DNA from: Pseudomonas abieticivorans
GTDB taxonomy: Bacteria > Pseudomonadota > Gammaproteobacteria > Pseudomonadales > Pseudomonadaceae
Assembly: GCF_023509015.1 (NCBI RefSeq)
Contig: NZ_CP094975.1
Location: 3,713,501-3,777,500 of the forward strand
Length of the DNA: 64,000 bases
Direction of reading: 5' to 3'
The position numbers were made by a program, and so were the translations under genes. The notes under the pieces are model-generated. The model was not told the origin of the DNA and made no database searches. It saw only the letters and a list, made by a program, of their open reading frames with translations. This document shows, one piece after another, positions 247-18,803 of the stretch (position 1 is its first letter; each line of letters begins with the position of its first letter).

Positions 247-2118
247 ATGTGGGTTGATAATGAAACAGAAACGGATTTTCTAAACTTCTCCGGAGTGGCC
301 GACACCGTCGCCGAAATCATCTATCAGGCGGATGGTCGGCCAATCTCAATCGGTGTCTCAGGGGCTTGGGGCGCCGGTAAGTCCTCGATGATCAAACTGA
401 TCCAATCGTCGCTTCGAACCCCGCCTGAGCCGAAAGAGAAACCATCAAAAGATTTCGTATTCGTTGAGTTCAATGCATGGCTCTACCAAGGCTACGATGA
501 CGCCAGGGCTGCGCTCATGGACGTTATTGCGACCCGCCTTGAGGAGGAAGCGCTAAAGCGTCAAACAGGTTTGGAGAAAGCCGGCGAGCTGATCGCACGA
601 GTCAATTGGCTTCGTGCGGCCAAAATGGTTGGTGGAGCAGCATTCGCGTTGGCCAGCGGCGTACCTCCTCCTGGATTTATGGGTGAAGTTTTCAGTTTGG
701 CAGGCCGAGTCTGGTCAGGTGGGGTCGATCAAGCAGTAGTTTCCGACATTCACGATAAGGCCGAAGATGCTGCAAAGCTCGCCAAGGATCTTGTCCGGGA
801 AAAGCCACCGCGATCATCGCCGCCACGGGAAATTCAAGCTCTAAGAGACAATTTCGAATCCATTCTCGACGAGCTAGGTGTGACGCTGGTCGTGCTGATC
901 GACGATCTGGATCGCTGTCTCCCAGAAACGACGATTTCGACGCTTGAGGCCATCCGACTGTTCCTTTTCCTGCGTAATACCGCATTCGTCATCGCCGCTG
1001 ATAACGAGATGATCAAGCACGCAGTTCGCCGGCATTTCAGTGGTGTCCCTGACGACGTCTTGGTCACCAGCTATTTTGACAAACTGATCCAAGTTCCCAT
1101 CCGTGTTCCTCCTCTCGGTACGCAGGAAGTAAGGGCTTACATGATGATGCTGTTTTTGGAGAACAGTACTTTGGATAAGCCAACTGTTGAGCAGATACGC
1201 ATCCGGGTTCGAGATCAGCTCAGGACGACATGGCAAGGTAACCGTGTCGACAGAGCCTTCATGCAGGGGCTTTACGATTCTTACCCAACTGAGTTGATCG
1301 GCAAGTTCGATACCGCCGAACGTTTGGCGGCTGTGATGACCTCGGCCTCCGGAATCCAAGGTAACCCACGGTTGATCAAGCGCTTCCTGAACGCTCTCGC
1401 CATCCGCATGACCATCTCGCGTGCTCAAGGTGTTGGAGTCGATGAGGCTGTGCTCGTCAAGTTGATGCTCTTTGAACGTAGTGGTAATCCCAAAGCCTAT
1501 GAGGAGTTGATGAAAGCGGTCGCCTCTCACAAGCAGGGCAAGCCAGCAATGCTTCAGGAATGGGAGGAGAGCTTGAAGCAGGGCAAAGCGCTTACGCTTC
1601 CCCAACCGTGGGAGCACCCTTTCGTTAAGGATTGGTTGGCGTTACCTCCGGCGTTAGCCGATAAGGATCTGCGAGGCGCCATTTACGTAAGTCGCGAGCA
1701 CGCGCCGATTATCACTGATGAGGATCGCCTCTCCTCAGAGGCTGCCGAGTTACTGGCGGCATTACTTGAAATGCCCGATATGGCCTACCAGCTCAGAGAG
1801 AGACTTGCGACCATCGCGCCGCTCGAAATCACAGTTTTGATGGATCGTCTCTTGGACAGGGCTAGCACTGAACAGGAGTGGGGGGTGCCAGCCATTCTTG
1901 AGGCTCTCCTTGTTGTCGCGAAGCTAGATGGACAACAAGGACTTCGCCTTGCTGCGTTTCTGAAAGAGCGTCCGCCGGCGCAGATTCAAGCTGGCATCGT
2001 CCCAAAGCTGACTGACGAGCCATGGGCGAAATCTGTTTATCAATATTGGCTGAGCGCCGAAGTCAGCTCTCCTGTGAAGGCGGCAATAAGGAAATTGGAT
2101 GGGAACGTCACAAAATAG
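247..2118 (+). CDS. qatA: QatA, KAP-family P-loop ATPase of the Qat anti-phage system
   Basis: A 623-residue KAP-type NTPase. The Walker A motif GAWGAGKSS is at residues 39-47 (Lys45), and a Walker B-like stretch LVVLIDDLDRC is near residues 213-223, with the doubled Asp usual in the family. The long segment between them and the C-terminal helical part are typical of KAP proteins. A strong ribosome site (AAGGAGGG, 235-242) precedes the ATG. In the known Qat system (QatABCD) this protein is the ATPase; its exact action against phage is not established. qatB starts 20 bp before its stop codon and qatC follows, so the three are an operon. Assignment rests on the ATPase motifs plus the unmistakable QatB and QatC neighbours. 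Confidence 0.9.
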   Translation: MWVDNETETDFLNFSGVADTVAEIIYQADGRPISIGVSGAWGAGKSSMIKLIQSSLRTPPEPKEKPSKDFVFVEFNAWLYQGYDDARAALMDVIATRLEEEALKRQTGLEKAGELIARVNWLRAAKMVGGAAFALASGVPPPGFMGEVFSLAGRVWSGGVDQAVVSDIHDKAEDAAKLAKDLVREKPPRSSPPREIQALRDNFESILDELGVTLVVLIDDLDRCLPETTISTLEAIRLFLFLRNTAFVIAADNEMIKHAVRRHFSGVPDDVLVTSYFDKLIQVPIRVPPLGTQEVRAYMMMLFLENSTLDKPTVEQIRIRVRDQLRTTWQGNRVDRAFMQGLYDSYPTELIGKFDTAERLAAVMTSASGIQGNPRLIKRFLNALAIRMTISRAQGVGVDEAVLVKLMLFERSGNPKAYEELMKAVASHKQGKPAMLQEWEESLKQGKALTLPQPWEHPFVKDWLALPPALADKDLRGAIYVSREHAPIITDEDRLSSEAAELLAALLEMPDMAYQLRERLATIAPLEITVLMDRLLDRASTEQEWGVPAILEALLVVAKLDGQQGLRLAAFLKERPPAQIQAGIVPKLTDEPWAKSVYQYWLSAEVSSPVKAAIRKLDGNVTK

Positions 2119-3001
2119 CGATGGGCCAGGTAAAGGGGTGCCTATGGTACCTTCCTGGACTCCGCCACTGCCGCCACTGCCGCCCGAGCCTCCACGGCCT
2201 CCTTCGCCACCACTGGATGAGCCAGGGGATGAAGATTCTCCGGGCCAGGAGGACGATCCGCATGGAGATATTGATGCCGATACTCCCATTCCTGAAGTAG
2301 TTCCTGCCGCACCCGTCCCCCTTGCTCCTCCGGCTCGATTCATTGGTGCGCGTCGAGGGCTTGGAGACTATGCGAGAAACGGCGATCGCGGGAGCTTACG
2401 CAGAAGCCTTCGTGAATACGTCCGCAATGGATATGGTGGGGCGAAAACGACTACTGCCCGGTTCGGTGGTACAGCAGCTATCGCCGGGGTTTTCAGTAGT
2501 ACTCTGGAATCCCTAGCTGATCCATCCGCTCAAGCGAGTTCAACCGCGCTTGATCCAGTGCTGTGGAGTGGTCGCTCAGCTTCAGAGGTCATGGACGCTC
2601 TGGTGGAGGCAGTGCGCCCGGTCGACGGCACCCAAGACGCGGAGGCGGAGCGTGCGTCCATCCGGGGATCTCTGTCTGATGTATTAGTGCGCTACCCGGA
2701 TGCTGATTTGCTCAACCTATCGGCAGACCAGCGCGCTTTTGCAATCGAACGCTTCACTGCGATGGATGTATTTCACAGATACGAGCTCGACCTTGGGAAG
2801 GCCGTTCAGGAAAAAGCTTCATCAGCGACCGTCGCTGTGAGGCGTCTGAGAGAAATCAAGGACTACATCAAGGAGTGTGTGTCCGCATCGTTTCGCAAGA
2901 TTGCGGCGTCCGGCTCTCGCTTGACGACAGGGCGGATTTCACAAGTTGTCACCCGCGCTTTGCAGGATACCTTTGAGGTGTTTGAGGGGTACGTAGAATG
3001 A
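2099..3001 (+). CDS. qatB: QatB, partner protein of the Qat anti-phage system
   Basis: A 300-residue protein that overlaps the qatA 3' end by 20 bp. It starts MGTSQNSDGPGKGVPMVP, the conserved QatB N-terminus, followed by a strongly proline-rich and then acidic low-complexity linker to about residue 80, and a mostly helical domain to the end. No catalytic motif is visible. The second-position glycine would be exposed after methionine removal. Work on QueC-like proteins in defence systems reports attachment of a deazaguanine to a partner protein's N-terminus, and this terminus is the obvious candidate acceptor for QatC; that is inference here. The stop overlaps the qatC start by 4 bp. Confidence 0.88.
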   Translation: MGTSQNSDGPGKGVPMVPSWTPPLPPLPPEPPRPPSPPLDEPGDEDSPGQEDDPHGDIDADTPIPEVVPAAPVPLAPPARFIGARRGLGDYARNGDRGSLRRSLREYVRNGYGGAKTTTARFGGTAAIAGVFSSTLESLADPSAQASSTALDPVLWSGRSASEVMDALVEAVRPVDGTQDAEAERASIRGSLSDVLVRYPDADLLNLSADQRAFAIERFTAMDVFHRYELDLGKAVQEKASSATVAVRRLREIKDYIKECVSASFRKIAASGSRLTTGRISQVVTRALQDTFEVFEGYVE

Positions 3002-4266
3002 GATTTGTATGTGGCCCAGCTGGCTTTCGGGTACCAGTTAGTGAGCGGGCAACGCAGGTTGTAATTTACGGTAAGGCTGAGAAAGGCGAGGTCAGTGTAG
3101 GTGGCTACGCGCGGTACCTGCTTGAGAAGAGGCATTTGGAGATTTCGCCTCGGGCGTGGGATTTTCTGAGCATCGCTCTTTCCGTTGTGGCGGCAGACTT
3201 CACAGCTATACGCGCCACCAGCGCTGATGGTTGGACGCGAGTCATTGACCTTGAGATTGCGGTGCAGGATCCCGACTTCTGGAACACACAAAGCGTAGCA
3301 TTAGCATCTGCATTGGCCTTCCTCACTACTGATCGGTGGACACTGTCATTTTATCCTGGTGGCTTTGCTCCTCCAGCCCAAATGCAAGCCCTGCACCCAA
3401 AGGAAGACTCTGTTGTTTTGCTTTCTGGTGGCCTAGACAGCTTGATCGGCGCGATCGATCTGGTTAACGAAGGGTTAAGGCCCTATGCAGTCAGCCAGAT
3501 AGTGCGCGGAGATGGTGCAAAGCAAGCTCAGTTTGCAGATGGCCTTGGTCTTACCAGAATCGGGCTTAATCATGTTGCAAAATCTCCAGGTAGCCAAGAA
3601 CCCTCACAACGCGCTCGCTCAATCATCTTCCTAGCCTTCGGGATGGCCGTGGCAACATCCCTTGACCGGTACCAGCGTGGCAATAATGTCCCGCTTTATA
3701 TTTGTGAGAACGGTTTCATCGCGATCAATCCTCCGCTCACAGTCACCCGGTTTGGAAGCTTGAGTACGCGCACGGCGCACCCTGAATATCTAGGACGCTT
3801 ACAGAAAATCTTCGATTCCGCGCAGATCAACGTCCAGATCCAGAATCCATATTCGCTTAAGACCAAGGGAGAAATGCTCGCTGAGTGCACCAATCAGGGC
3901 CTTCTCACCCAATATGCGGTTGCATCTACGAGCTGCGGAAGATTTCAGCGTTTTGGTTACAGACACTGTGGCCGTTGCGTTCCTTGTCAGGTCAGGCGCA
4001 GTTCATTCCAGCGGTGGGGGGAGTTGGTCGACACCACAGATTATGTTTATGACGACCTCGGCATTCAGGATCCACAGCATGGCCAGTTTGAAGACGTGAG
4101 GTCGGTCGGGATGGCATTAGCTAACGTCGCACAAGTCGGGTTCGATGAGTGGTTGGGTCACAGCCTTTTTTCCCCATTCATCAAGGATCGTGCTGGCTAT
4201 AGTCAGATGCTTCAGAGAGGGCTCAATGAGTTAGGCGCCTTGCATGCGACCTACCGGTTGAGCTGA
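2998..4266 (+). CDS. qatC: QatC, QueC-like protein of the Qat anti-phage system
   Basis: A 422-residue QueC-like protein. The PP-loop motif SGGLDS lies near residues 143-148. A zinc-binding cysteine set is visible towards the C-terminus: Cys313, then HCGRCVPC giving Cys324, Cys327 and Cys330, as in QueC. Compared with housekeeping QueC (about 225 residues) it has roughly 135 extra residues before the PP-loop and an extended C-terminus, as expected for QatC. QueC makes 7-cyano-7-deazaguanine; in Qat the chemistry is thought to be redirected to a protein target. The gene overlaps qatB by 4 bp (ATGA). The TatD-like qatD that normally follows is absent; the next gene is an unrelated short one 45 bp downstream. 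Confidence 0.9.
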   Translation: MRFVCGPAGFRVPVSERATQVVIYGKAEKGEVSVGGYARYLLEKRHLEISPRAWDFLSIALSVVAADFTAIRATSADGWTRVIDLEIAVQDPDFWNTQSVALASALAFLTTDRWTLSFYPGGFAPPAQMQALHPKEDSVVLLSGGLDSLIGAIDLVNEGLRPYAVSQIVRGDGAKQAQFADGLGLTRIGLNHVAKSPGSQEPSQRARSIIFLAFGMAVATSLDRYQRGNNVPLYICENGFIAINPPLTVTRFGSLSTRTAHPEYLGRLQKIFDSAQINVQIQNPYSLKTKGEMLAECTNQGLLTQYAVASTSCGRFQRFGYRHCGRCVPCQVRRSSFQRWGELVDTTDYVYDDLGIQDPQHGQFEDVRSVGMALANVAQVGFDEWLGHSLFSPFIKDRAGYSQMLQRGLNELGALHATYRLS

Positions 4267-4311
4267 TCGTAATCAACATTGTTTCAACCTGGCTCCTGAA
4301 GGATGCATGGC

Positions 4312-4647
4312 ATGCATTTCACCAAAGCTATCGAGGCTAGTCCTAGCACCTTGCTTATTCATAAGCTGCCGAGGGTCATCGAAGTAGCTCGCGCCGCCGT
4401 ATCTGATGAAGGTATTACAGGCTATATAGCCTGCGCGCTGGAGCACTCAAATACCATGACGGGCTTGCTGTTCTGCGACCGTCAGGTCGGGCAACCAGAT
4501 GGGCTTCTAGTACAAACTGACCGCATTGCTGAGCGCGCGTGGGTTGAGGGATACGAGCTAGTCGTCACAACGTTGGGTGATGTTTACGTCGTTGCGCATC
4601 ATCAATATCAGAACGGTGCCCTAGATAGCTTAGATCGCTGTCACTGA
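4312..4647 (+). CDS. Small unknown protein in the qatD position
   Basis: A 111-residue soluble protein of no family I can name. The start at 4312 is chosen because GAAGGA at 4298-4303 is correctly spaced from it; an in-frame ATG at 4303 overlaps that ribosome site. Near the C-terminus it carries DGLLVQTDRIAERAWVEGY followed by YVVAHHQY. The same spacing of Gly, Val/Ile, Thr, acidic residue, Gly-aromatic and Tyr-Val recurs in the two small proteins at 6222 and 6506, so the three appear related. It lies 45 bp after qatC on the same strand and may be co-transcribed. Its 3' end converges on the XRE regulator. Confidence 0.6.
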   Translation: MHFTKAIEASPSTLLIHKLPRVIEVARAAVSDEGITGYIACALEHSNTMTGLLFCDRQVGQPDGLLVQTDRIAERAWVEGYELVVTTLGDVYVVAHHQYQNGALDSLDRCH

Positions 4648-4797
4648 AGGGTTCTGCGTGCCTAGGGCCACGTCCATATCTAGCGCCCAAAATCCTCAGG
4701 TGCAGGGTGTTTGGACTACAGCGCATCGATTCAACTACCCGCTGGGCAAGCGCTTCAGCATGCTCAGACATTTCACTATTAGTGGGCCAAGCCCACT

Positions 4798-5265
4798 CTA
4801 AGGACTCCAATGGCGGCGGACAGTTGTACGGGGGATCCCTAGCTCCCTCGCTGCTTCGGACGGGTTTTTGCCTTCGGCTCGAAGCCGGTGAATCTCCGAT
4901 ATCACTTTTTCATTGCGGGGCTTGCCCCGCGATCGCTTCAGTAAGACACCTTCTGCCATCTCACTGCTCATCAGATCGAGCCCACCTGAAGATCCAAACT
5001 TTTCCAGGCACGCTGTCGTCGATTCAATGACTGATTTGATCGAAGCATTTTCCTGCAAGCTGACACACAGGATCACGAACGCAGGCAGTTCGAACTCCAA
5101 TGCCTGGGCAAGCTCTGCAAGCTTGTCCAGGGTCACACCGGTCTGGCCGCGCTCCAGCTCGCCAATCGTGCGACGTGCCGTTGTATCGGAAAGACGCGCA
5201 TAACCACCGCCCTGCAGCTGGCGGAGGGCTCTAAGGACTGCAGCGACCTCAAATTTTAGCGACAT
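4798..5265 (-). CDS. XRE-type regulator with a second C-terminal HTH
   Basis: A 155-residue predicted DNA-binding protein. Residues 8-60 fit an XRE/Cro helix-turn-helix (ending in TIGELERGQTGVTLDKLAEL, the usual recognition helix and follow-on). The last 40 residues form a second HTH of the resolvase/Hin type, with NPSEAARELGIPRTTVRRHW. A Ser/Gly-containing linker joins the two. Two DNA-binding units of different type in one short protein are uncommon. It diverges from the phosphoesterase operon at 5471 across a 205 bp gap, so regulation of that operon and of itself is the simplest reading. Confidence 0.7.
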   Translation of the reverse strand: MSLKFEVAAVLRALRQLQGGGYARLSDTTARRTIGELERGQTGVTLDKLAELAQALEFELPAFVILCVSLQENASIKSVIESTTACLEKFGSSGGLDLMSSEMAEGVLLKRSRGKPRNEKVISEIHRLRAEGKNPSEAARELGIPRTTVRRHWSP

Positions 5266-5412
5266 AGATGCCTAAAAGGTGAGGATAGAGCCATAGGTAT
5301 GCATGGCAAATAAACGCCGTATATTGTAATTATCGGCCACTCCGCCGTATGATGACGAATGATCAAAGCGCCCGAATCGGCTTCAAATCTGGTTTGCGGA
5401 CGGCGTGGCGTT

Positions 5413-5429
5413 CTCCGCTGTGTGCGGAG
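5413..5429. promoter_or_regulatory. Inverted repeat in the XRE/phosphoesterase intergenic region
   Basis: CTCCGC and GCGGAG form a perfect 6 bp inverted repeat with a 5 bp spacer, 41 bp before the phosphoesterase start and between two divergent genes. The same gap contains a repeated CGCCGTAT (about 5315 and 5343) and an AT-rich stretch that could hold a promoter. These are candidate operator elements for the XRE regulator; nothing proves binding. Confidence 0.35.
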
Positions 5430-5470
5430 TGCGCAAATTCAATTAAAGGCTAAATCGACTTCGAAAAAAG

Positions 5471-6199
5471 ATGAAAGCACTCATTCTGTCTGACCTGCAT
5501 ATCGAATTTGAGCCCTACCATGTTCCGCCTGTAGACGTCGACTTGGTTATTCTCGCGGGTGACATTCATAAAGGGGTAAGAGGTGTTCGATGGGCGAATG
5601 AGATGTTCTCAGTGCCCGTCGTCTACGTGGTCGGCAACCATGAGTTCTATTCAGGCCATCTTGATTACACGTTGGAAAAAATGCGGGCGGCGTCAGACAA
5701 CCATGTACACGTACTTGAACGAGAAATTTTTGTGTTCGAGGGGTGCCGATTTCTGGGGGCGACCTGTTGGACTGACTATACATCGAGCGGGGACATGAGC
5801 ACGGCTATGGCGATTGCTCGTAGCTCCATGAACGATTTCAAGACTATCAGGGCTGACACGGGTTACCGAAGATCGCGCCCAGATGACCTGGTTACACGCA
5901 ATCATTTGGCTCGTGATTGGCTGTCCTCCCAGCTAGATGCTCCCTTCGAAGGGAGCACGGTCGTCATCAGCCACCATTGCCCAGTTCCTGAGGTGGCTGG
6001 AGACAATGAGGAAGGGCATTTGAGCGCGAGTTACACCAATAGCTGGCATTCACTGGTCAGCAGGAGTGATGTATGGATTTTTGGGCATACCCATCACGCG
6101 ATTGACCAGACGTTGGGCGGTTGTCGGCTTGTATCGAACCCCAAGGGATATCCCGGCGAATCGACGGGATTTGACCCGATGAAAATTATTGAAATATAA
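5471..6199 (+). CDS. Calcineurin-like metallophosphoesterase
   Basis: A 242-residue phosphoesterase with all the family's metal-binding blocks in order: SDLHIE (residues 8-13), GDIHKG (about 31), GNHEFY (about 57), SHHCP (about 167) and GHTHH (about 205). It should therefore be an active di-metal enzyme acting on phosphoesters or nucleic acids; the substrate is unknown. It is the first gene of a plus-strand operon with two small proteins (22 bp and then overlapping) and probably a HAD hydrolase. The ribosome site is an A-rich GAAAAAAG. It is not a TatD family member, so it is not QatD, but it is the nearest hydrolase to qatABC. Confidence 0.85.
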   Translation: MKALILSDLHIEFEPYHVPPVDVDLVILAGDIHKGVRGVRWANEMFSVPVVYVVGNHEFYSGHLDYTLEKMRAASDNHVHVLEREIFVFEGCRFLGATCWTDYTSSGDMSTAMAIARSSMNDFKTIRADTGYRRSRPDDLVTRNHLARDWLSSQLDAPFEGSTVVISHHCPVPEVAGDNEEGHLSASYTNSWHSLVSRSDVWIFGHTHHAIDQTLGGCRLVSNPKGYPGESTGFDPMKIIEI

Positions 6200-6221
6200 C
6201 CTGGTGGACGGAGATGAGAAG

Positions 6222-6506
6222 GTGGACGTCTTGGAGACTTCCCGTGATATTTCAGCACGGCTTAAAACTGCTCAGGCAATCGATTGGGGGGTCGTAGTAG
6301 ATGGCTACCTCGTCAATGCTGCGGCTGTCGGGCGGGTGTACGCGGCCTCGTTGTATTCCGACCATTCCCAGAAAATTGCGGACGGCGAAACGGTCGTGAC
6401 GCCCCCTGTCACGGATGTCTATCAGCAGCAAGGGTTCACCCTGCTAAGAAGCTTCAACGGTTTCGACCACTATGTGGTTGTAAGCCAGTTTGTGGGGGAT
6501 ACGTGA
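6222..6506 (+). CDS. Small unknown protein downstream of the phosphoesterase
   Basis: About 94 residues from the GTG at 6222, chosen because GGAG at 6209-6212 is well placed. Alternative in-frame starts are GTG 6204 and TTG 6189, the last overlapping the previous gene. No known family is recognised. It contains DGETVVTPPVTDVYQQQGF then HYVVVSQF, which aligns without gaps in its first block to the corresponding motif of the proteins at 4312 and 6506. The stop codon overlaps the next start (TGATG), implying translational coupling. Role unknown; a binding partner or modulator of the phosphoesterase is possible. Confidence 0.55.
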   Translation: MDVLETSRDISARLKTAQAIDWGVVVDGYLVNAAAVGRVYAASLYSDHSQKIADGETVVTPPVTDVYQQQGFTLLRSFNGFDHYVVVSQFVGDT

Positions 6507-6820
6507 TGGACGTTCCGGAGCTTGAGATGCCAAGCCTCGTTCTGCACGCGACGCAGCTTACCTTCACTGGTGGCGTCACCGCTTTTTTGTACCAGCCAGA
6601 GGTGTGGGGTTTTTGTTTGGTAGGTATCGTGTATCGCGACTGGAAGGACAGATTCCGAAGCGGTCGACATATCAGGACGTCCAGTGTTCGCGAGGTTGAA
6701 CATGAGCATGGTTATTTGATCGCGATCACCGAAAGTGGAAGCCGATATGTGCTCGTTGATCCCGACCTTCAGCCAGACTCTCTCCTGTGGAAAGAATCAA
6801 TCGATCCGACTGCCCACTGA
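6506..6820 (+). CDS. Small unknown protein, second of the coupled pair
   Basis: A 104-residue protein whose ATG overlaps the stop of the preceding gene. No family is named with certainty; the style is that of small DUF proteins common in Pseudomonas accessory regions. It carries SGRHIRTSSVREVEHEHGY followed by RYVLVDPD, the same C-terminal pattern as in the proteins at 4312 and 6222. The N-terminal half is rich in aromatic and hydrophobic residues (YQPEVWGFCLVGIVYRD), suggesting a compact beta fold. A HAD gene follows after 76 bp. Confidence 0.6.
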   Translation: MDVPELEMPSLVLHATQLTFTGGVTAFLYQPEVWGFCLVGIVYRDWKDRFRSGRHIRTSSVREVEHEHGYLIAITESGSRYVLVDPDLQPDSLLWKESIDPTAH

Positions 6821-6896
6821 GCCTTGTCGTAACCTAAGCGATAGTGTTTCTCTGCTTACTATCCATCGCGTGGGTATTTGCTGTTACGGAGATTCG

Positions 6897-7529
6897 ATGA
6901 AGATCACCGCTGCCATATTCGATGCCTTCGGAACTACCGTTCACATCACTCGGCCAACACATCCTTATCGTCAGTTGCTCCGCGAAGGTAGGTCTCAGGG
7001 ACGTGTGCCTAAAGTGGATGATCTTCGAACGCTCATGACCAACGGGCTCTCACTCGGTGAGGCCGCGTGTGTTTTTGGTATCAATCTCACGCCCGCCAAA
7101 CTACATCTCCTTGAGCAAGCGCTGGAGGAAGAAATAGCGAGCATGCGACCCTATCCAGATGCCCGAGAGGCGATCGCGATATTGCAGGCTGCTGGGTTGA
7201 GTGTGGCTATCTGTTCCAATTTGGCCATGCCGTACGGTATGGCAATAAAACAGATCCTCCCTGACCTCGATGCATACGTTTTCAGCTATCAGGCCGGCGT
7301 TACGAAGCCCGATCCGATCATTTATCGGGAGACCTGTAGGCTGCTAGGCGTGCAGCCTGGCAATGAGTTTAGTGGTCAAGGGCGCGTCGTGATGATTGGT
7401 GACTCGCCGAGGTGTGATCGAGATGGGCCACGCCAGGTCGGGATCAGCGGCTTCCTCTTACGCAGGGGACAGCCAGATGATTTTTCGAGCCTGGTTGGCT
7501 TCGCCCACACTATCGTTGGATGCGACTAG
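6897..7529 (+). CDS. HAD-superfamily hydrolase, haloacid-dehalogenase-like
   Basis: A 210-residue HAD subfamily IA protein. Motif I is DAFGT near residue 8: the nucleophilic Asp is present but the second Asp of the phosphatase DxD signature is Phe, as in L-2-haloacid dehalogenases (DAYGT). Motif II is CSN, motif III is TKPDPIIY with the conserved Lys, and motif IV is GDSPRCDRDGPRQVG. The start at 6897 follows ACGGAG. It is probably the last cargo gene before the recombinases and may belong to the phosphoesterase operon (76 bp gap). The substrate cannot be predicted; the altered motif I argues against a simple phosphatase. Confidence 0.8.
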   Translation: MKITAAIFDAFGTTVHITRPTHPYRQLLREGRSQGRVPKVDDLRTLMTNGLSLGEAACVFGINLTPAKLHLLEQALEEEIASMRPYPDAREAIAILQAAGLSVAICSNLAMPYGMAIKQILPDLDAYVFSYQAGVTKPDPIIYRETCRLLGVQPGNEFSGQGRVVMIGDSPRCDRDGPRQVGISGFLLRRGQPDDFSSLVGFAHTIVGCD

Positions 7530-7602
7530 TCGAGCAGGCGGCGAAGATCCGGAGCATATCTGTCCTTGATCATAGGTCGAAGGACTCCCATGCGCCAGAG
7601 AG

Positions 7603-8031
7603 CTACCTGCGCGGCTGGGCTGAAACTAGCTCAACTACACTCCGGTCTTTGAGCTTGGCTTTAAGCACACTGTTCTCCTCCAGCAGCACCTCATTAATGG
7701 ATGCAATGCTGGCGAGCTTGGCTTTGAGCTCCTCAATTTCCTGACGATATCCTGTGGACTTTTGGCGCTCAGCAATCAGATCTTGATGTTTGACATCCCG
7801 CATGGCGCGGCTTGATCGACCCTGCTTCTCCCGGATGGCCTCTGCAACTGCCGGGTAGTGGTTGTGAATCAGCGCCGTCGACACGCCGGCCTCGCGGGCA
7901 ACGGCAGCAATGGTTACTTTGGTTTCCTTGTTATGAGCGCGTCCGTTCTCGATACGGTAGATGGCCAGTTTGAGATCCTTTTCTCGATCTACCGCAGGCT
8001 TATAGTTGGCTGTTTTGTCTTTGCTCTTCAT
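7603..8031 (-). CDS. Small HTH/coiled-coil protein of the recombinase module (TnpC-like)
   Basis: A 142-residue protein. Residues 40-70 form a TetR-like helix-turn-helix (VTIAAVAREAGVSTALIHNH) and residues 95-130 a leucine-rich coiled coil. Its position as the last gene of an overlapping recombinase operon, its size and its architecture match the TnpC/DUF6262-type accessory protein of Tn554-like elements and the small third component of recombinase-trio islands. Its start overlaps the stop of the upstream recombinase by 4 bp (ATGA). It probably assists recombination or sets its direction; this is inferred from the family, not visible in the sequence. Confidence 0.7.
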   Translation of the reverse strand: MKSKDKTANYKPAVDREKDLKLAIYRIENGRAHNKETKVTIAAVAREAGVSTALIHNHYPAVAEAIREKQGRSSRAMRDVKHQDLIAERQKSTGYRQEIEELKAKLASIASINEVLLEENSVLKAKLKDRSVVELVSAQPRR

Positions 8032-9911
8032 GCCGTCAGTGCCTCCGGAGGCATGCCCAGCTGTACCAATACGTCTCGGCAGCGGTTTAGGTCGCGCTCA
8101 ACGCGTTGGCGACCTCCTTCACCGATGTCTTTGCAGTACAGCAACCCTTTCAGATCATCGTAAAGTCGTTGGTAGATAGGAGCGTGGGAGTGTGCGATCA
8201 CCGAATGATCACAGCCACCGCAGCGGCTTCGTTCAAGGGTATTACCAACGCATCCGTCGTTGTCCGCCGTACACCAAGCGTGGCCATTGCTGCGGATAGC
8301 TGTGCTCTCAGAGATGGACTTCAGCATAGAGGCACGATCTTTGAAAATCAGCAGATTTTCAGGCTCCCGTTGCCACCCCTTAATGGCGCGTCCGTATCCT
8401 CCAGCCAAGGGCTCATTACCCATCCAGTTGTCCACGACTCCGAGCTTGATATCTTCAAGCTCATCTTGAATCTCCGCATACAGATCAAGATCGAGATGCT
8501 GTCCCCAGCTGTCGTCCATAGCGTAACCAAGTGTCATGTCCAGCGACCAGTGAGCGTAATGCTCCTTTAGGTAACGGAGGTCGCCAAAGCGGCTACGCGC
8601 GGCATAGTTGGCGAATTTGCGTCGAAATTGGTGGCTGGCGAGTTTCCAATCCAACCCGCAGTCTTTGGCGAAAGCTTTGAGGATCCCGCCCCAGCTGGTA
8701 TTGGAAAGTGTACGGACTGTTCCGTTTTTTTTAGACTCAGCCCCCAAGAAAAGGGAATGGCGGTGTTTGTAAGCCTCTGCGATTTGGGGATCCTGCGAGT
8801 TGAGACGACGTCGCAGGGCAATCTCTTTGGTTATCATCGCCTGGTAGGGTAGAGACCAGCGCTCCATGATCCGAAGGGCGCGCACTGCAGCTTCTGGAAT
8901 CATCCAGTCGTGAAGTCCTTCATCGGTCTTTTCGGATGTAGAACGCATCCAGTGGTAAATTGTGCCCTCATCATCTTCGGTGCGGTGGTGCGCTCCCGAT
9001 TGCAAGTTTGCCAGCTCGTGATTACGGCAGCCTGAAGTGCTTGCCAGGATGACGTAGCACGCCGTTCGCAGGGTTGTCAGGGATTTTTTTAATGTCCCCA
9101 GGCCTCCCTCCCAACCCATGCGATTTAGGTGCTGATTTTTGCTTCTTATCGTATCGAAGGTTTTTTGGACTTTGCTCTGTGCAGCAATAGCTTCTAGGTC
9201 ATCACGCAGGTCAAGCAAGCGCTTGCCGCCTTCTAGCTCTCGATAGGCCTTTTCGAACAGAGTGCAGAACGCTGCGTCAGGAATGAGTGGCGTTTTTCCT
9301 CCGTCTACGTCTCCGAGCCTTCCAGCCATGGCTCTTGCGGAGGTTTCAGGCCATGGGTGCTGTGCTATTCGGTCGCCTGTGTATTGGCTGAGTTCATAGA
9401 GCGCTTCAACTGTGGAGTAGCGGCGCTGTAGGGTTGATTGAGAAAGTGGTTTGCCTGATTTCTGAGACTGCTTTTGATTTCTGCAGGCACTCACATAGGT
9501 CGCAGCGATCATAGGGGTTACTGCACCAAGGTGATCGATCTTCAGCGTTTCTAAATGGCGTAAGAATGGCCGTGCGTTGACTACTAGCCCGCGAATCATT
9601 GCGCCCTTGGGCAGGGCTGATTCACGACGACCACGTCTGATATATCTGTAAAGAATTGCCTTCATCACGGGCCGAAACGTCAATGGCAAGCTGTCGAAGT
9701 CAATCTCTCGGTTGCTGCGCGAAACGTTGTTGGGTAAACCATCGAGTTGCCAGATACTGTCCCCATAGCGACTACGAATGACCCAGTGTCCATCGACTTT
9801 GATTGCGCTGACGATCAGCTTGTCGCGCGCGGAGTCAGAAAGCTCACGCACATCGCCAGGCTGAGCTGTGATCGTCGGCCATAGCAGTGCTTCTGAGATG
9901 TTTTCACTCAT
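8028..9911 (-). CDS. Large tyrosine recombinase of the island module (third in operon)
   Basis: A 627-residue integrase-like protein, close in length to Tn554 TnpB (about 630). Catalytic-domain landmarks are TSGCRNHEL (first Arg), ASHQFRRKF (His-x-x-Arg) and EHYAHWSLDMTLGYA (distal His/Trp and the Tyr). The C-terminus has a cysteine cluster, CTADNDGC...CGGC, likely a zinc-binding site. The start overlaps the upstream recombinase stop by 4 bp and the gene's own stop overlaps the small HTH gene by 4 bp. It is likely to act together with the other two recombinases in excision and integration of the island. Confidence 0.8.
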   Translation of the reverse strand: MSENISEALLWPTITAQPGDVRELSDSARDKLIVSAIKVDGHWVIRSRYGDSIWQLDGLPNNVSRSNREIDFDSLPLTFRPVMKAILYRYIRRGRRESALPKGAMIRGLVVNARPFLRHLETLKIDHLGAVTPMIAATYVSACRNQKQSQKSGKPLSQSTLQRRYSTVEALYELSQYTGDRIAQHPWPETSARAMAGRLGDVDGGKTPLIPDAAFCTLFEKAYRELEGGKRLLDLRDDLEAIAAQSKVQKTFDTIRSKNQHLNRMGWEGGLGTLKKSLTTLRTACYVILASTSGCRNHELANLQSGAHHRTEDDEGTIYHWMRSTSEKTDEGLHDWMIPEAAVRALRIMERWSLPYQAMITKEIALRRRLNSQDPQIAEAYKHRHSLFLGAESKKNGTVRTLSNTSWGGILKAFAKDCGLDWKLASHQFRRKFANYAARSRFGDLRYLKEHYAHWSLDMTLGYAMDDSWGQHLDLDLYAEIQDELEDIKLGVVDNWMGNEPLAGGYGRAIKGWQREPENLLIFKDRASMLKSISESTAIRSNGHAWCTADNDGCVGNTLERSRCGGCDHSVIAHSHAPIYQRLYDDLKGLLYCKDIGEGGRQRVERDLNRCRDVLVQLGMPPEALTA

Positions 9912-11587
9912 GAGAAAACCTCTAGGGTGTGGATTAGATCAACTGACCAGAACGGGTGTGGTTGGGTGCGGGCACGCTCACGAGCGGCGTCCACTGCTGC
10001 CGCTTTGAATATGCTCCGCCGTAGGCCTTCGGCGACTATGTAATGATCGATCAGCCGAGGAATGTGGCCGTATTCACGTGCCCACCGACGCTTATCCATG
10101 CGGGAGCGTTCAGCTAGCACGCGGAAGTAGAAGCTGAAGAGCTTGTACAGATCCTCGGCAGTCACTGCGTAGTGCTTACAGCGGAGACAGTTCATGAAAT
10201 TCATGCACGTCGCGCCGTCGCGTTTTGGGGCGTACTGACCATTCAGCGGGTCGCCACAGCGACCAAGAGGAATTTCTTTATAGGTGGCGCCGATGGTTGC
10301 GGTTAGCAATTCCTGAATCAGCACCTCTCCCATGAATCGCCAGTTTCGAGCGGCATCCTCACCGGGCGCCAGATAGTTTTGATCGGCTATTCGCGGCGTG
10401 TTACCGAGCGCAGAGGCAGTGGTCGCAAGATCTCCGTTTGTTAACTCGAAGACGCGGTTCGCAAACGTCTTGCGCAGTCGAGAAATGTTGACCCGCAAAG
10501 GCTCTCCATCGCTGTTCTTCAACCCATATAAGGCTACAAGACGTCTGGATCCTCGATCCAAGGCGTTCTGCTGCAACGCTAGAACTCTGCCCAGTGAGCG
10601 CGTGGCGCTGTTGCGGTACAACCACACCCGACCTTTTAGGTCGTCCGGCGCTTCAAAATCCAATGGCTCGGTTAAAGCCATAACTCTACGAATGAGGCGC
10701 TCCACGTTGAATTTCACGCTTGGCATGGATTCCAGTACCCGCTCTGCTTTCGCATCAGCTCGCAGAGCAACCTTGCTGGATCTGTAGCCACGTCGCTTCC
10801 ACAACACCAAGAAGACGGTGTTGTCCTTCGGATGCGGTCGCAGGCAGTCACGGCCCATCTCTAGCAAAGGAGTAGTGTTACGCCCGGTGTGCAGAGCAAT
10901 GATGAGAAAGGCGAAGACCAGCAGTTCTCCAGTCACGACTGGATCATCGGCCCAAATTGGCTTGATTGCCTGCCGTAATGCCGTAGCAAATTCTTGCCGT
11001 TCACGCTTCGATAGAGGTGTCTCGCCCTTGGCCTTGCGGCCTAAGTTCGGGAATGGGTTGCGTGGAAAGGTGGCATCATCGCCAGAGGCAACCAGCGGCA
11101 GGATGCCGCGCTGCCCGAGAGCGAGAAGCACCGGCTTGGTGTGTGAGTAGTAGCCTTTCTGTGTAAGAGTCGCTACACCCCTTTGAGCGAGGTGACTTAA
11201 AAAGCCGTCAATAAGATCTCGGTTCAGATCGTTCGGGGCTAGGTCGCGTTCATAAGCCATTGCCTGGAGTACGCAGTAGTCGAGGAAAAATTTCAGCCCA
11301 GAGGTACAGTAGGAGGCTACGGTAGTAGCTGAAACGGTATTATCTTGCCCTGCAAGAAAGCGTTCGATCTGGCGCTGACATACGTAGGTGATGGCATCAA
11401 TGCCCAAGCCGTACCATTTTGCGAAATCGAAATTCCTGGCGGTCGTAGAGTTGCGCCCAAATTTGATCACGGTGTTCTTTGGTGGCATGGCCTCAGGGAG
11501 GATGACGATATTCCCTACCTTGTCGATGCTGTGCTCCACCTGCGGGACACTTAGGTCTGTTTTGGAAAATACCTTGCGCTTTCCCAT
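9908..11587 (-). CDS. Tyrosine-recombinase-like protein with altered catalytic residues (second in operon)
   Basis: A 559-residue integrase-family protein. HTGRNTTPL supplies the first Arg. The usual HxxR is SRLR within NISRLRKTFANR, and the usual LGH is LGN in ALGNTPRIADQNYL, although a Tyr follows at about the right place. Thus two catalytic histidines appear replaced. Near the C-terminus CMNFMNCLRCKH, preceded by RCGDP, could bind zinc. It starts one base from the end of the first recombinase (TGATG) and overlaps the next gene by 4 bp. It may be a structural or accessory recombinase rather than a full catalyst; that is inference. Confidence 0.75.
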   Translation of the reverse strand: MGKRKVFSKTDLSVPQVEHSIDKVGNIVILPEAMPPKNTVIKFGRNSTTARNFDFAKWYGLGIDAITYVCQRQIERFLAGQDNTVSATTVASYCTSGLKFFLDYCVLQAMAYERDLAPNDLNRDLIDGFLSHLAQRGVATLTQKGYYSHTKPVLLALGQRGILPLVASGDDATFPRNPFPNLGRKAKGETPLSKRERQEFATALRQAIKPIWADDPVVTGELLVFAFLIIALHTGRNTTPLLEMGRDCLRPHPKDNTVFLVLWKRRGYRSSKVALRADAKAERVLESMPSVKFNVERLIRRVMALTEPLDFEAPDDLKGRVWLYRNSATRSLGRVLALQQNALDRGSRRLVALYGLKNSDGEPLRVNISRLRKTFANRVFELTNGDLATTASALGNTPRIADQNYLAPGEDAARNWRFMGEVLIQELLTATIGATYKEIPLGRCGDPLNGQYAPKRDGATCMNFMNCLRCKHYAVTAEDLYKLFSFYFRVLAERSRMDKRRWAREYGHIPRLIDHYIVAEGLRRSIFKAAAVDAARERARTQPHPFWSVDLIHTLEVFS

Positions 11588-12732
11588 CAGACCTCTCCTG
11601 CCATTTCGTTTAGCTCGTCGTCATATGCCAGCACGGCCTCATCGGCCATTTCGTTGACTAGGTGCAGATAGATCATCGTGGTTTGAATCGAACTGTGACC
11701 AAGCGCGCGTTGTAGGTACACCAAAGGATCAATTCCCTGCTGCGGGTTGCGCTGAAGGCTTACCAGGGTGTGGGTAGCGTATGTGTGACGCAGCATGTGC
11801 GCATGGACTTCAATTCCAACCCGCTCTCCCGTCTCGACGATGATTCGATTCAAACTCTTGCCGTTGCTTCCATAGGGCTTTCCACGATGATTCAGGAGGA
11901 GAGCCTTTTGACCTTTGCCCAGAGACGCCCGCTCACCGCGCAGTTTGGTCACATAGCGGTAGAGTTCGGACATGAATTTCCGGCTGATATGGATATTTCG
12001 GACGTTGTTACCCTTGGTCTCCATCCCGCTGCCGTCGAAAGGATCAAGACGAATTCGCAGGTTACGCTCGGTGCGTCCGGCTTTATCCGGGTCGAAAACG
12101 TACGCCGTTGGGAACGTAGCCAGTTCGTTACGACGCAGGCCTGTGCGCAGGGCGAGCTGAATCATGATTCGATGATGCGGATTGTCGGCTGCTGCCATAA
12201 GAGACTTGGCCTGAGACATGCTTAGAAACTTAGGGAGCGACTTGTGCCTGCGAGGCAGCACATCGTTAACCAGGGCTTTACCACCGCTAGCATCGACATG
12301 TTGAAGGAAGCTTGTTTCGCGCTTGACAGTCCGCTCCTCGTGACTGAACGGCAGGCGTTTGACCCAACCTTTCTCCAAGGCGAACTCGTAGAACTTGCAG
12401 ATATACGTCAGTCGCTGGCGGGTGGTGTTGATTGCAAGCTCACATGTCACGAGGCAGTAGTCTCGGTAGGCAGCCACAAGGCTTTTGGCCTCACCGCGAT
12501 CTACGTCCCGCCAATCAAGGTCATGGGCCTGAAGGAAGCTGAAGAAATCGTACAGCGCTCGTCCAGTGCTCGGCCAAGACTCTTTGGAGCCAATATCCCC
12601 ACGGAGGAGGTAGTGACGAAAGAACTGATTAGCTTGAGTGCAGCTCTCCATCGAGTCCCACAACAGAATCGGAAACCCTTGGTAAGGATGTCCTGCAATC
12701 ACGAATTCCTTGGTGCCCCACACAAGCTCCAT
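11587..12732 (-). CDS. Tyrosine recombinase, outermost gene of the island
   Basis: A 381-residue site-specific recombinase with the full catalytic set by position: Arg200 in TGLRRNEL, Lys240, His312 and Arg315 in HMLRHTYATH, His346 in LGHSSIQTT, and Tyr355. An N-terminal SAM-like core-binding domain spans about residues 30-130. It is similar in size to Tn554 TnpA (361). It is the first gene of the four-gene integration operon and lies next to the chromosomal junction at about 12870. It probably makes the DNA cleavages; its transcription starts in the 140 bp that contain a 10 bp inverted repeat. Confidence 0.85.
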   Translation of the reverse strand: MELVWGTKEFVIAGHPYQGFPILLWDSMESCTQANQFFRHYLLRGDIGSKESWPSTGRALYDFFSFLQAHDLDWRDVDRGEAKSLVAAYRDYCLVTCELAINTTRQRLTYICKFYEFALEKGWVKRLPFSHEERTVKRETSFLQHVDASGGKALVNDVLPRRHKSLPKFLSMSQAKSLMAAADNPHHRIMIQLALRTGLRRNELATFPTAYVFDPDKAGRTERNLRIRLDPFDGSGMETKGNNVRNIHISRKFMSELYRYVTKLRGERASLGKGQKALLLNHRGKPYGSNGKSLNRIIVETGERVGIEVHAHMLRHTYATHTLVSLQRNPQQGIDPLVYLQRALGHSSIQTTMIYLHLVNEMADEAVLAYDDELNEMAGEV

Positions 12733-12874: not shown

Positions 12875-14035
12875 TCATAGGGCATTCCTGAGGGTTTGCA
12901 GGTGGGCTACCTGGCGGCTGAAATCGGCAGCACTGAGGCGTTGTCGGGGGCGAGGGCGCAAGGCATGGCCAATGGCGCTGGTGGGCTGGCGGGTGAGGCG
13001 CGCCAGCACCAGCCACTGCTCGGCCACCGGCAGTTTTTCGAAACCGGGATGGCGCCGTCGCGCGCGGCGCAGCACGTCTTGCTGCAAGCTGCGCAACAGG
13101 GCGTCCTGGCCAGCATGGCGCAGCAGAAAGCTGGCGCTGGCCTGCAAGTGTTCCTGCAACTGGCGACGGGCCAAGGGTTCAGGCTGGCGTATCGGGCCTT
13201 CGCGCAGGCCCAGGCGCCACAACGCCATGGCTACCAGCAGGGCCAGCGCCAGCAAGGCCTGTGGGTAATAGCGCTGCAACAAGGTCCACAGGCTGTCGTG
13301 GTCGCTATTGAACAGTAGGGTCACGTCGGTGCCCTGGTTGAGGTACCACAGCAACCAGGCATTGTCATAACGGCCAATCGCGCCGTTGGTCCACAGGTCG
13401 GCGTCGGTGACCACGGTGATCAGGCCGTCGCCCAGGGTCAGTTGCATCAGGTGCGTGGCGTTGGCGCTGTTAGCCCAGGACTGGGCCTTGTTGGTCGGGT
13501 CTTCGAGGTGGAAGGCCGGGTCAAAGCCGAAGTAGGCCGGGGCCTTCTCGTTTTCCAGGTAGAGCTTGGTCAGGCGCGGGAAGTCGTCGTCCGCAGCCTT
13601 GGGCAACTGGGGCAGGTCGCGGCTGAGCAACTGGTGCAATTGCAGGCGATCGAGCAGCAGGTCGCCGCTCATGCCCTTGTGCTCATCCCAGAGCGCCTCG
13701 GCGACGAACAGCAACCGCCCGCCGCGCCGCACCCAGCTGAGCAACTGGCCCGCCTGGTTGGGTGTCATGTAGCTGCGATCGCCCAGCAGCAATAGGCTGC
13801 GGTGGTTCGACGGCAATTGCGCCAGAGCTTCGTAGTTGGGCGCCAACGTTGCGACAAGACCGCGCTGGCGCAGGTATTGCTGGGCGGCCAGGTAGGGGTT
13901 GGCGCGGGCTTCGGGGGCCTGGCCATGGTCGATGGTCTCGGTGTAGCGGTGCAGGTGGCGCGCAAGCGCCAACCCCAGCAGCACCAATGCCAGGGCGATC
14001 AACAGGCCGAGCAGGCCGCGTTCGCGCCGGGTCAT
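12875..14035 (-). CDS. DUF4350 membrane protein
   Basis: A 386-residue protein starting MTRRERGLLGLLIALALVLL, an N-terminal membrane anchor, followed by a DUF4350 domain with LLLLGDRSYMTPNQAG and SWVRRGGRLLFVAEAL, and a second membrane segment near residue 265. The ATG at 14035 overlaps the upstream DUF4129 stop by 4 bp. It is the last gene of a four-gene operon (RDD, SpoIIM, DUF4129, DUF4350). In other Pseudomonas this operon usually continues into MoxR ATPase and DUF58 genes; here the genomic island begins about 30 bp after the stop. Function unknown; the set is thought to act at the cell envelope. Confidence 0.8.
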   Translation of the reverse strand: MTRRERGLLGLLIALALVLLGLALARHLHRYTETIDHGQAPEARANPYLAAQQYLRQRGLVATLAPNYEALAQLPSNHRSLLLLGDRSYMTPNQAGQLLSWVRRGGRLLFVAEALWDEHKGMSGDLLLDRLQLHQLLSRDLPQLPKAADDDFPRLTKLYLENEKAPAYFGFDPAFHLEDPTNKAQSWANSANATHLMQLTLGDGLITVVTDADLWTNGAIGRYDNAWLLWYLNQGTDVTLLFNSDHDSLWTLLQRYYPQALLALALLVAMALWRLGLREGPIRQPEPLARRQLQEHLQASASFLLRHAGQDALLRSLQQDVLRRARRRHPGFEKLPVAEQWLVLARLTRQPTSAIGHALRPRPRQRLSAADFSRQVAHLQTLRNAL

Positions 14036-17202: not shown

Positions 17203-17369
17203 TGGTGCATTCCCTGTCGTAGCTTATAGATGATGGAGAGAATCAGCGGACCCCGATGCTAGACACCCTGCGCGGTTCAAGCAACCTGGCAATGACTGCA
17301 CACAGTCTTTGCTGGTCGCAGGTAACATCAAGGCCTAGACTTTGCCGACTTTATGCACAGGACCCCGCC

Positions 17370-18803
17370 GTGAATTCCAGCATTTTCTGGTACGACTACG
17401 AAACCACCGGCATCAACCCGCGCGCTGACCGGGCCTTGCAGGTCGCCGGTATTCGCACCGATGCCGAACTCAACGAGATCGATGCCCCGGTCAACCTGTA
17501 CTGCCGGCCCAGCGACGATATCCTGCCGCACCCCATGGCCAGCATGATCACCGGCATCACTCCAGACAGGCTAGCTGAAAAAGGCCTGTGCGAAGCCGAG
17601 TTCATGACGCGGGTACATGCCCAACTGGCCGCGCCAGGTACGTGCGGTGCCGGTTACAACACCCTGCGGTTCGATGATGAGGTGACGCGCTACAGCCTGT
17701 ACCGCAACTTTTTCGACCCCTATGCCCGCGAGTGGCAGGGCGGCAACAGCCGCTGGGACCTGATTGACGTGGTGCGCGCCGCCTATGCCTTGCGCCCGCA
17801 GGGTATCCAGTGGCCCGAGGTGGACGGCAAGGTCAGCATGAAGCTTGAGCTGCTCACGGCCGCCAATGGCATCGACCACGGCCAGGCCCACGATGCGCTC
17901 AGCGACGTGCGGGCGACGATTGCCCTGGCGCGTTTGCTGCGTGAAAAGCAGCCGCGCCTGTATGACTGGCTGTATCAGTTGCGCAGTAAGCAGAAAGTGC
18001 TCGACCAGATTCGCCTGATGCAACCGGTGGTGCATATTTGCGGGCGGTTCTCGGCGGCACGCAATTATCTGGGGGTGGTATTACCCTTGGCCTGGCACCC
18101 ACGTAATCGTAATGCTTTGATAGTCTGGGACCTGCATTTTGATCCGCAGCCCCTGATTAACGAGGGCGCGCAGGTACTGCGCCAGCGGTTATACACACGT
18201 CGCGAAGAGTTGGCTGAAGATCAATTACCCGTGGCGCTTAAAATTATTCACATCAACCGTTGCCCGGTAGTCGCACCACTCGGCGTTTTGCGTGCCGAAG
18301 ATCAGCAGCGGCTGAATCTGAACATGAATAATTGTCAGCAACGGGCAGCGCAGCTCAATGCATCAAAGGCGCTTTGGACCGATAAGATTGCAGCGCTGTA
18401 TGCCCAGGAAGACTTCACCCCGAGCGAAGATCCCGAGCAGCAGTTATACGACGGTTTCATCGGTGACCGGGACCGGCGGCTATGCGAGCAAGTACGCACA
18501 TTGGACCCGCAGCAATTGGCGAGCGAGCCGTGGATGTTCGATGATGAACGTTTGCCGGAATTATTATTTCGATACCGTGCACGTAACTTTCCCGATACCT
18601 TGGCGGCCGCCGAGCACGCGCAATGGCTGGCGTTCTGCAAGCAACGCTTGAGCGATGCCAAGTACGGCGCGCCGAACACCTTGGCCGGCTTCAGGCAGGC
18701 GCTTGCCGAGCTGCTGCCCACCGCGACGGCGCAGCAGCGCGACATTCTGGCGCAGTGGCAGCGTTATGCGAGTGACTTGGCACAACGCCTCGGGATGCAA
18801 TAG
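17370..18803 (+). CDS. sbcB: Exodeoxyribonuclease I
   Basis: A 477-residue 3'-5' single-strand DNA exonuclease, about the length of E. coli ExoI (475). The DEDDh catalytic start FWYDYETTG gives Asp9 and Glu11, and HDALSDVRATIALA near residue 174 gives the later His and Asp. The exonuclease, SH3-like and C-terminal helical regions are all present. The start is the GTG at 17370; no ATG is in frame before the conserved N-terminus. ExoI acts in mismatch repair and recombination. It is transcribed alone, divergent from the RDD gene, and ends at a bidirectional terminator shared with mvaT. Confidence 0.93.
   Translation: MNSSIFWYDYETTGINPRADRALQVAGIRTDAELNEIDAPVNLYCRPSDDILPHPMASMITGITPDRLAEKGLCEAEFMTRVHAQLAAPGTCGAGYNTLRFDDEVTRYSLYRNFFDPYAREWQGGNSRWDLIDVVRAAYALRPQGIQWPEVDGKVSMKLELLTAANGIDHGQAHDALSDVRATIALARLLREKQPRLYDWLYQLRSKQKVLDQIRLMQPVVHICGRFSAARNYLGVVLPLAWHPRNRNALIVWDLHFDPQPLINEGAQVLRQRLYTRREELAEDQLPVALKIIHINRCPVVAPLGVLRAEDQQRLNLNMNNCQQRAAQLNASKALWTDKIAALYAQEDFTPSEDPEQQLYDGFIGDRDRRLCEQVRTLDPQQLASEPWMFDDERLPELLFRYRARNFPDTLAAAEHAQWLAFCKQRLSDAKYGAPNTLAGFRQALAELLPTATAQQRDILAQWQRYASDLAQRLGMQ

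Follow-up and report, generated by a model that had tools for sequence, protein, structure and literature searches.

A qatABC operon without qatD in Pseudomonas abieticivorans, a probable natural QatD-less form of Qat

The qatABC operon and its island

The window, a 64,000-nucleotide stretch of the Pseudomonas abieticivorans genome (contig NZ_CP094975.1, positions 3,713,501 to 3,777,500), holds near its start three overlapping genes, qatA, qatB and qatC, whose reading frames are all intact across 247-4266 (genome coordinates 3713747-3717766) and complete, as the initial annotation had described them. The Qat anti-phage operon usually consists of four genes, these three and one for the nuclease-like QatD; the QatABCD anti-phage system was reportedly described by Gao et al. 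2020. At the window operon the TatD-family QatD that would follow qatC in a four-gene system is missing, and no TatD gene adjoins qatABC. The features of the locus are as follows.

247-2118, plus strand: qatA, a 623-residue KAP P-loop NTPase with Walker A motif GAWGAGKS at residues 39-46 and LIDDLDR at 217-223
2099-3001, plus strand: qatB, 300 residues, with an MGTS N-terminus followed by a Pro-rich/acidic tail; 20-base overlap with qatA
2998-4266, plus strand: qatC, a 422-residue QueC-like enzyme; ATGA overlap with qatB
4267-4302, no strand: the position at which four-gene operons have the start of qatD; similarity to relatives ends at the qatC stop, by eye
4303-4647, plus strand: orphan ORF of 114 codons from the first ATG, or 111 from the ATG at 4312; not regarded as part of the system
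4798-5265, minus strand: HTH regulator, head to head with the metallophosphoesterase gene and apparently the regulator of that module
5471-6199, plus strand: calcineurin-like metallophosphoesterase, a separate module
7603-12732, minus strand: four-gene cluster (142, 627, 559 and 381 residues) near the right island end, the 381-residue protein matching the Pfam phage integrase family

All three Qat proteins are named by both PADLOC and NCBIfam, and the sole curated cut-off missed is that of QatA, which scores 463.9 against an NCBIfam equivalog threshold of 600 bits and is recognized as a KAP-family ATPase by PADLOC (E 6e-142) and by the Pfam KAP NTPase model (221.5 bits). In QatABCD operons annotated on plasmids, too, the QatA gene is listed without the QatA name. 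QatB scores 135.3 against a cut-off of 100 and carries the MGTS N-terminus, and QatC scores 301.7 against 280 with its SGGxDS, TRTxHP and cysteine motifs in place (SGGLDS at 143-148, RARSIIF at 205-211, TRTAHP at 257-262, PYSLKTK at 284-290 and cysteines 313, 324, 327 and 330). All four zinc cysteines are visible in the aligned columns, and D67 was matched by eye with the catalytic aspartate given in the available text of PMC13329287 and PMC13279940. A promoter and terminator scan returned sites no more numerous than in shuffled sequences. Downstream of qatC the order is the 114-codon ORF, the HTH gene on the other strand, the metallophosphoesterase gene, small ORFs, a HAD hydrolase gene and the recombinase cluster, in which the 627-residue protein has a weak match below cut-off and the 142- and 559-residue proteins have no match above it.

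The operon and the recombinase cluster lie on an island that spans about 20.6 kb, is bordered by moxR and a DUF4350 gene, and extends from L059:11228 to window position 12877. Among eight genus relatives sampled, moxR abuts DUF4350 in all six with a DUF4350 match (G003 and G007 have none), and GC content is 53-57% in the window part of the island versus about 66% just past its right end. Upstream of the window the island also holds HerA and SIR2 genes (L059:11431-14405; PADLOC E 9.6e-157 and 9.5e-76), a probable second defence pair, as well as arsenic-like genes named by reading their translations; an exonuclease I-like gene (17256-18803, Pfam Exonuc_X-T_C) lies to the right of the island. In two related loci the qat genes are flanked by a 5' fragment of hrpB on one side and a complete copy of that gene on the other (4259-4639 and 9969-12494 in L090; 13874-14287 and 3206-5731 in L091), an arrangement that looks as if an element enters hrpB bringing its own copy; these complete copies are 73-74% identical to the hrpB of L008, where a complete hrpB (8330-10849) likewise follows qatC. 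In the window's own genome hrpB is located elsewhere.

Absence of QatD in the window genome and its relatives

The initial annotation had reported that no TatD-family gene follows qatC, and the complete genome bears this out: its single 6.7-Mb contig has three TatD (PF01026) matches, at 4510964, 3511833 and 4621745, all of them over 200 kb away from the operon. A TatD gene elsewhere on the island, or one just upstream of the window, had also been considered; neither was found, the 19.2 kb upstream of the window being free of TatD genes. A tblastn search of 18 loci with nine QatD proteins recovered no clear qatD remnant (best E 0.13).

The same arrangement recurs in the nearest relatives. In nine of nine genomes (eight Pseudomonas, one Vreelandella; QatC 75-80% identical) no TatD gene stands beside qatC. 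The QatC scan of the genome collection gave 55 loci, of which the closest eight (L004-L011) lack TatD in their available flanks, and 31 of 398 Pseudomonas genomes searched with QatC matched, adding one further member of this group (G217, represented by L062/L091), the other close matches being repeats of L004, L006, L007, L008 and L010. A viral-collection contig, L124, also carries qatABC with no TatD within 3.7 kb downstream; the phage records yielded no QatC match at E 1e-15. Together with the window operon these loci form what we call clade I, a small group of ten genome rows plus L124. In the other clade I loci the downstream coverage is shortest in L006 (1.1 kb) and reaches 8.7 kb, and TatD ORFs elsewhere begin between 660 bases before (a long ORF call) and 198 bases after the end of the qatC match. 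Genome-wide, G096, the source of L006, lacks a fourth TatD.

What follows qatC was also tabulated more widely, as the initial annotation had proposed. After duplicate removal 102 QatC-like rows were retained: 78 have TatD beside qatC, 13 have QatA and QatB without TatD, seven have none of the three and are not Qat, and four (L019, L024, L112 and L113) end too soon after qatC, in a sample that was drawn with the window QatC, so that its ratio of QatD-less to QatD-bearing rows is not a population frequency. The TatD profile used on the loci was seeded with one TatD, that of L001. Of the 78, L080 has just a TatD fragment of 64 codons where its contig ends. Among QatD-bearing operons, the closest relatives found lie on rhizobial plasmids (QatC about 60% identical); four of the first six were examined, each with qatD. 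TatD was found in 10 of 10 plasmid operons examined and is annotated in nine, the gene of L118 being split over two frames; nine further halomonad loci have TatD in every case. The Qat operons on the Paracoccus, Bradyrhizobium and Sinorhizobium plasmids (L118, L119 and L120) have an undetected or incomplete qatA and transposase genes nearby. L083-L089, which have no QatA or QatB genes in their available DNA, were set aside, as was L057; the QueC-like gene of L083-L089, of about 460 residues, distantly similar to QatC and with no QatA or QatB within about 1.3-1.5 kb on each side, occurs in 8 of the 398 sampled Pseudomonas genomes.

Conservation, phylogeny and alternative explanations

All three qat genes are under strong purifying selection. 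In five close clade I pairs omega is 0.051-0.059 for qatA, 0.045-0.114 for qatB and 0.043-0.076 for qatC. Synonymous distance (dS) from the window to its nine relatives has reached saturation in 24 of 27 comparisons, which makes the three-gene form an old one and leaves three qatB values (0.068-0.087) for the window's own omega. Of the positions that show at least 90% conservation across 48 QatD-bearing rows, clade I has changed throughout at none of 69 for QatC, none of 17 for QatB and one of 106 for QatA, and so keeps 191 of 192; clade II, a second QatD-less group described below, has nine changes in QatA, five in QatC and one in QatB. An altered surface on the three proteins marking a lost QatD contact was considered and rejected: by the same measure seven QatD-bearing groups have 0-22 changes in QatA, 0-9 in QatC and 0-2 in QatB, and because both clades fall within that range no QatD docking site is proposed. 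Eight motifs are found in all 13 QatD-less rows (SGGxDS, RxRxxxF/Y, ENG, TRTxHP, PxxxxTK, CGxCxxCxxRR and AAD in QatC, Walker A in QatA), and every one of the 13 QatB ORFs encodes MGTS, 11 of them from their first ATG. The QatC motifs listed in the available text of PMC13329287 and PMC13279940 likewise have counterparts in 13 of 13 rows.

In a tree of 75 of the 102 rows the ten clade I genome rows form one group (SH-aLRT 100) nested within QatD-bearing lineages. Clade II comprises three Pseudomonas rows (L075-L077), 35-39% identical to the window, which form their own group (SH-aLRT 100) and have no TatD in 7.8-8.8 kb downstream, the genes after qatC differing in each. The QatD-less label requires two changes on this tree, and a single origin for all 13 QatD-less rows was rejected on a tree of 49 of the 102 rows (a cost of 164 log units, p-AU 1.5e-5), both trees being quick ones and the tested group known beforehand. 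Placement among QatD-bearing lineages suggests that QatD was lost rather than never present, more strongly for clade I, on a tree whose outgroup is very long and whose root is unsure. QatD would appear to have been dispensed with at least twice, with QatA meanwhile constrained like QatC.

The initial annotation had set a natural three-gene variant beside decay of a four-gene operon and takeover of the nuclease function by another gene, and these data favour the first: nine relatives and L124 are organized alike, and the ten genome rows group as a clade with an SH-aLRT of 100. A decaying operon that has recently lost its last gene might leave what is seen by eye at the window, where similarity to relatives ends at the qatC stop codon as after a deletion; beyond that stop some relatives share bases among themselves, also by eye. 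The shared absence of QatD in ten relatives, the lack of a clear qatD remnant, the low omega values and the unchanged conserved sites all speak against decay, which we regard as highly improbable, and the recent recombination scar at 4267 that had been envisaged is contradicted because relatives at saturated synonymous distance also lack qatD.

Takeover by a gene in the slot after qatC is about equally hard to credit. The slot had been described as a 111-residue unknown followed by a regulator; an orphan ORF and an HTH gene do follow, the former having 114 codons from its first ATG, and the regulator lies on the minus strand and is probably outside qat, because it co-occurs with the metallophosphoesterase in 4 of 11 clade I loci. 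Searched against 5.8 billion proteins, the 114-codon ORF matched only its own cluster of two sequences. The metallophosphoesterase is the other candidate: those four loci have the head-to-head pair (4798-6506 in the window) no further than about 6.2 kb downstream of qatC, and the enzyme is found in a higher share of clade I genomes tested (5 of 8) than of a genus sample (49 of 199). In the three other loci, however, an hrpB copy separates the pair from qatC, and at E 1e-40 the enzyme has no match in three of eight clade I and three of three clade II genomes tested and is therefore no required partner. A shared replacement gene was also sought among flanking ORFs of at least 80 codons in the 11 clade I loci and rejected, the widest families, metallophosphoesterase and HTH, each reaching only 4 of 11 in flanks of unequal length (1.1-8.7 kb downstream, 2.3-10.2 kb upstream).

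A further possibility is that one of the host's three housekeeping TatD proteins supplies the QatD role in trans. We compared TatD genes directly in 19 genomes, 11 QatD-less (eight clade I and three clade II, thus leaving out L005, L009 and L124) and 8 of the 13 QatABCD genomes found among Pseudomonas. In favour, each of the 11 has three full-length TatD genes (>200 bits), and in one (G004) a TatD gene lies about 16.5 kb from qatC. Three full-length genes, however, are usual in the genus (10 of the 12 further Pseudomonas genomes sampled, the remaining two having three plus a weak match of 41-45 bits), and all eight QatABCD genomes keep a dedicated fourth, which directly follows qatC and scores 139-164 bits. 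At 222.9 bits the G004 gene falls in the housekeeping class, unlike QatD, and the single housekeeping TatD compared, that of L001, shares 23-31% identity with nine QatDs. Two QatD-less genomes (G102 and G018) carry, far from qat, an additional weak match (43-45 bits) of a type also present in G009 and G010, genomes without a QatC match. Supply in trans is in our judgement unlikely, if less so than decay or takeover.

A putative QatABC working unit and comparison with known systems

The natural three-gene reading can be set against published work on QatABCD. In the available text of a 2026 structural paper, QatB and QatC associate in a 1:1 complex, QatBC by itself defends fully against lambda, defence depends on QatB's N-terminal glycine motif and on the active site of QatC, QatA binds DNA, and loss of QatA and QatD abolishes defence against some phages and narrows the range; the roles of QatA and QatD are left open there (PMC13279940). 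As QatBC alone defends against lambda, a QatD-less form is plausible. In the QatC cluster of PMC13329287 the shares are near 33.6% for qatD and near 34.3% for qatA, and the available text describes no three-gene form alongside them. The accessible portions of the literature on Qat systems describe no natural QatD-less operon; Gao et al. 2020, Oh and Bae, and Gao Z. et al. might.

We propose a mechanism where QatC would bind QatB and modify its N-terminal glycine using ATP, in a deazaguanylation-like reaction, and where modified QatB together with the KAP ATPase QatA would block phage replication. In four-gene operons QatD would act as an accessory that changes which phages are stopped, and in the window operon QatA-QatB-QatC would be the complete unit. 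We infer that the operon may defend its host, that its QatB may undergo this chemistry and that QatA may act without QatD. The locus is probably a Qat subtype that naturally lacks QatD: QatABC would form the working unit, and QatD, where present, would be an accessory that affects phage range. The intact three-gene form in a small Pseudomonas and Halomonas group suggests that QatD is an optional add-on, and such a division agrees with a natural lineage in which QatA is retained as tightly as QatC with QatD absent. A bolder reading, that QatABC is a separate, self-sufficient and nuclease-free Qat type whose effector is QatC-modified QatB with the DNA-binding ATPase QatA, QatD being a tuning or reset factor rather than a killing enzyme, would build on the repeated loss of QatD under sustained QatA constraint, and we hold it only tentatively, as somewhat less probable than its converse. 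A natural A+B+C lineage allows the roles of QatA and QatD to be told apart and provides ready operons for testing, and annotation rules requiring all four genes would miss qatABC loci.

Compared with QatABCD, the window operon has the same KAP ATPase QatA, MGTS QatB and QueC-like QatC, in the same A-B-C order and with overlapping frames; it differs in that its genome has no QatD anywhere and in that its QatA falls under the NCBIfam QatA cut-off. Type IV CBASS, as described in the available text of PMC13279940 and PMC13329287, resembles it in that a QueC-family enzyme, Cap9, acts on the N-terminal glycine of its partner; there the partner is a CD-NTase, for which no model match was found among the 10 proteins scanned at 247-8031, whereas in Qat the partner is QatB and QatC has extensions of its own. 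The laboratory-truncated QatBC of PMC13279940, according to its available text, also works without QatD, but that truncation is artificial and lacks QatA as well, whereas the natural form keeps QatA under strong selection.
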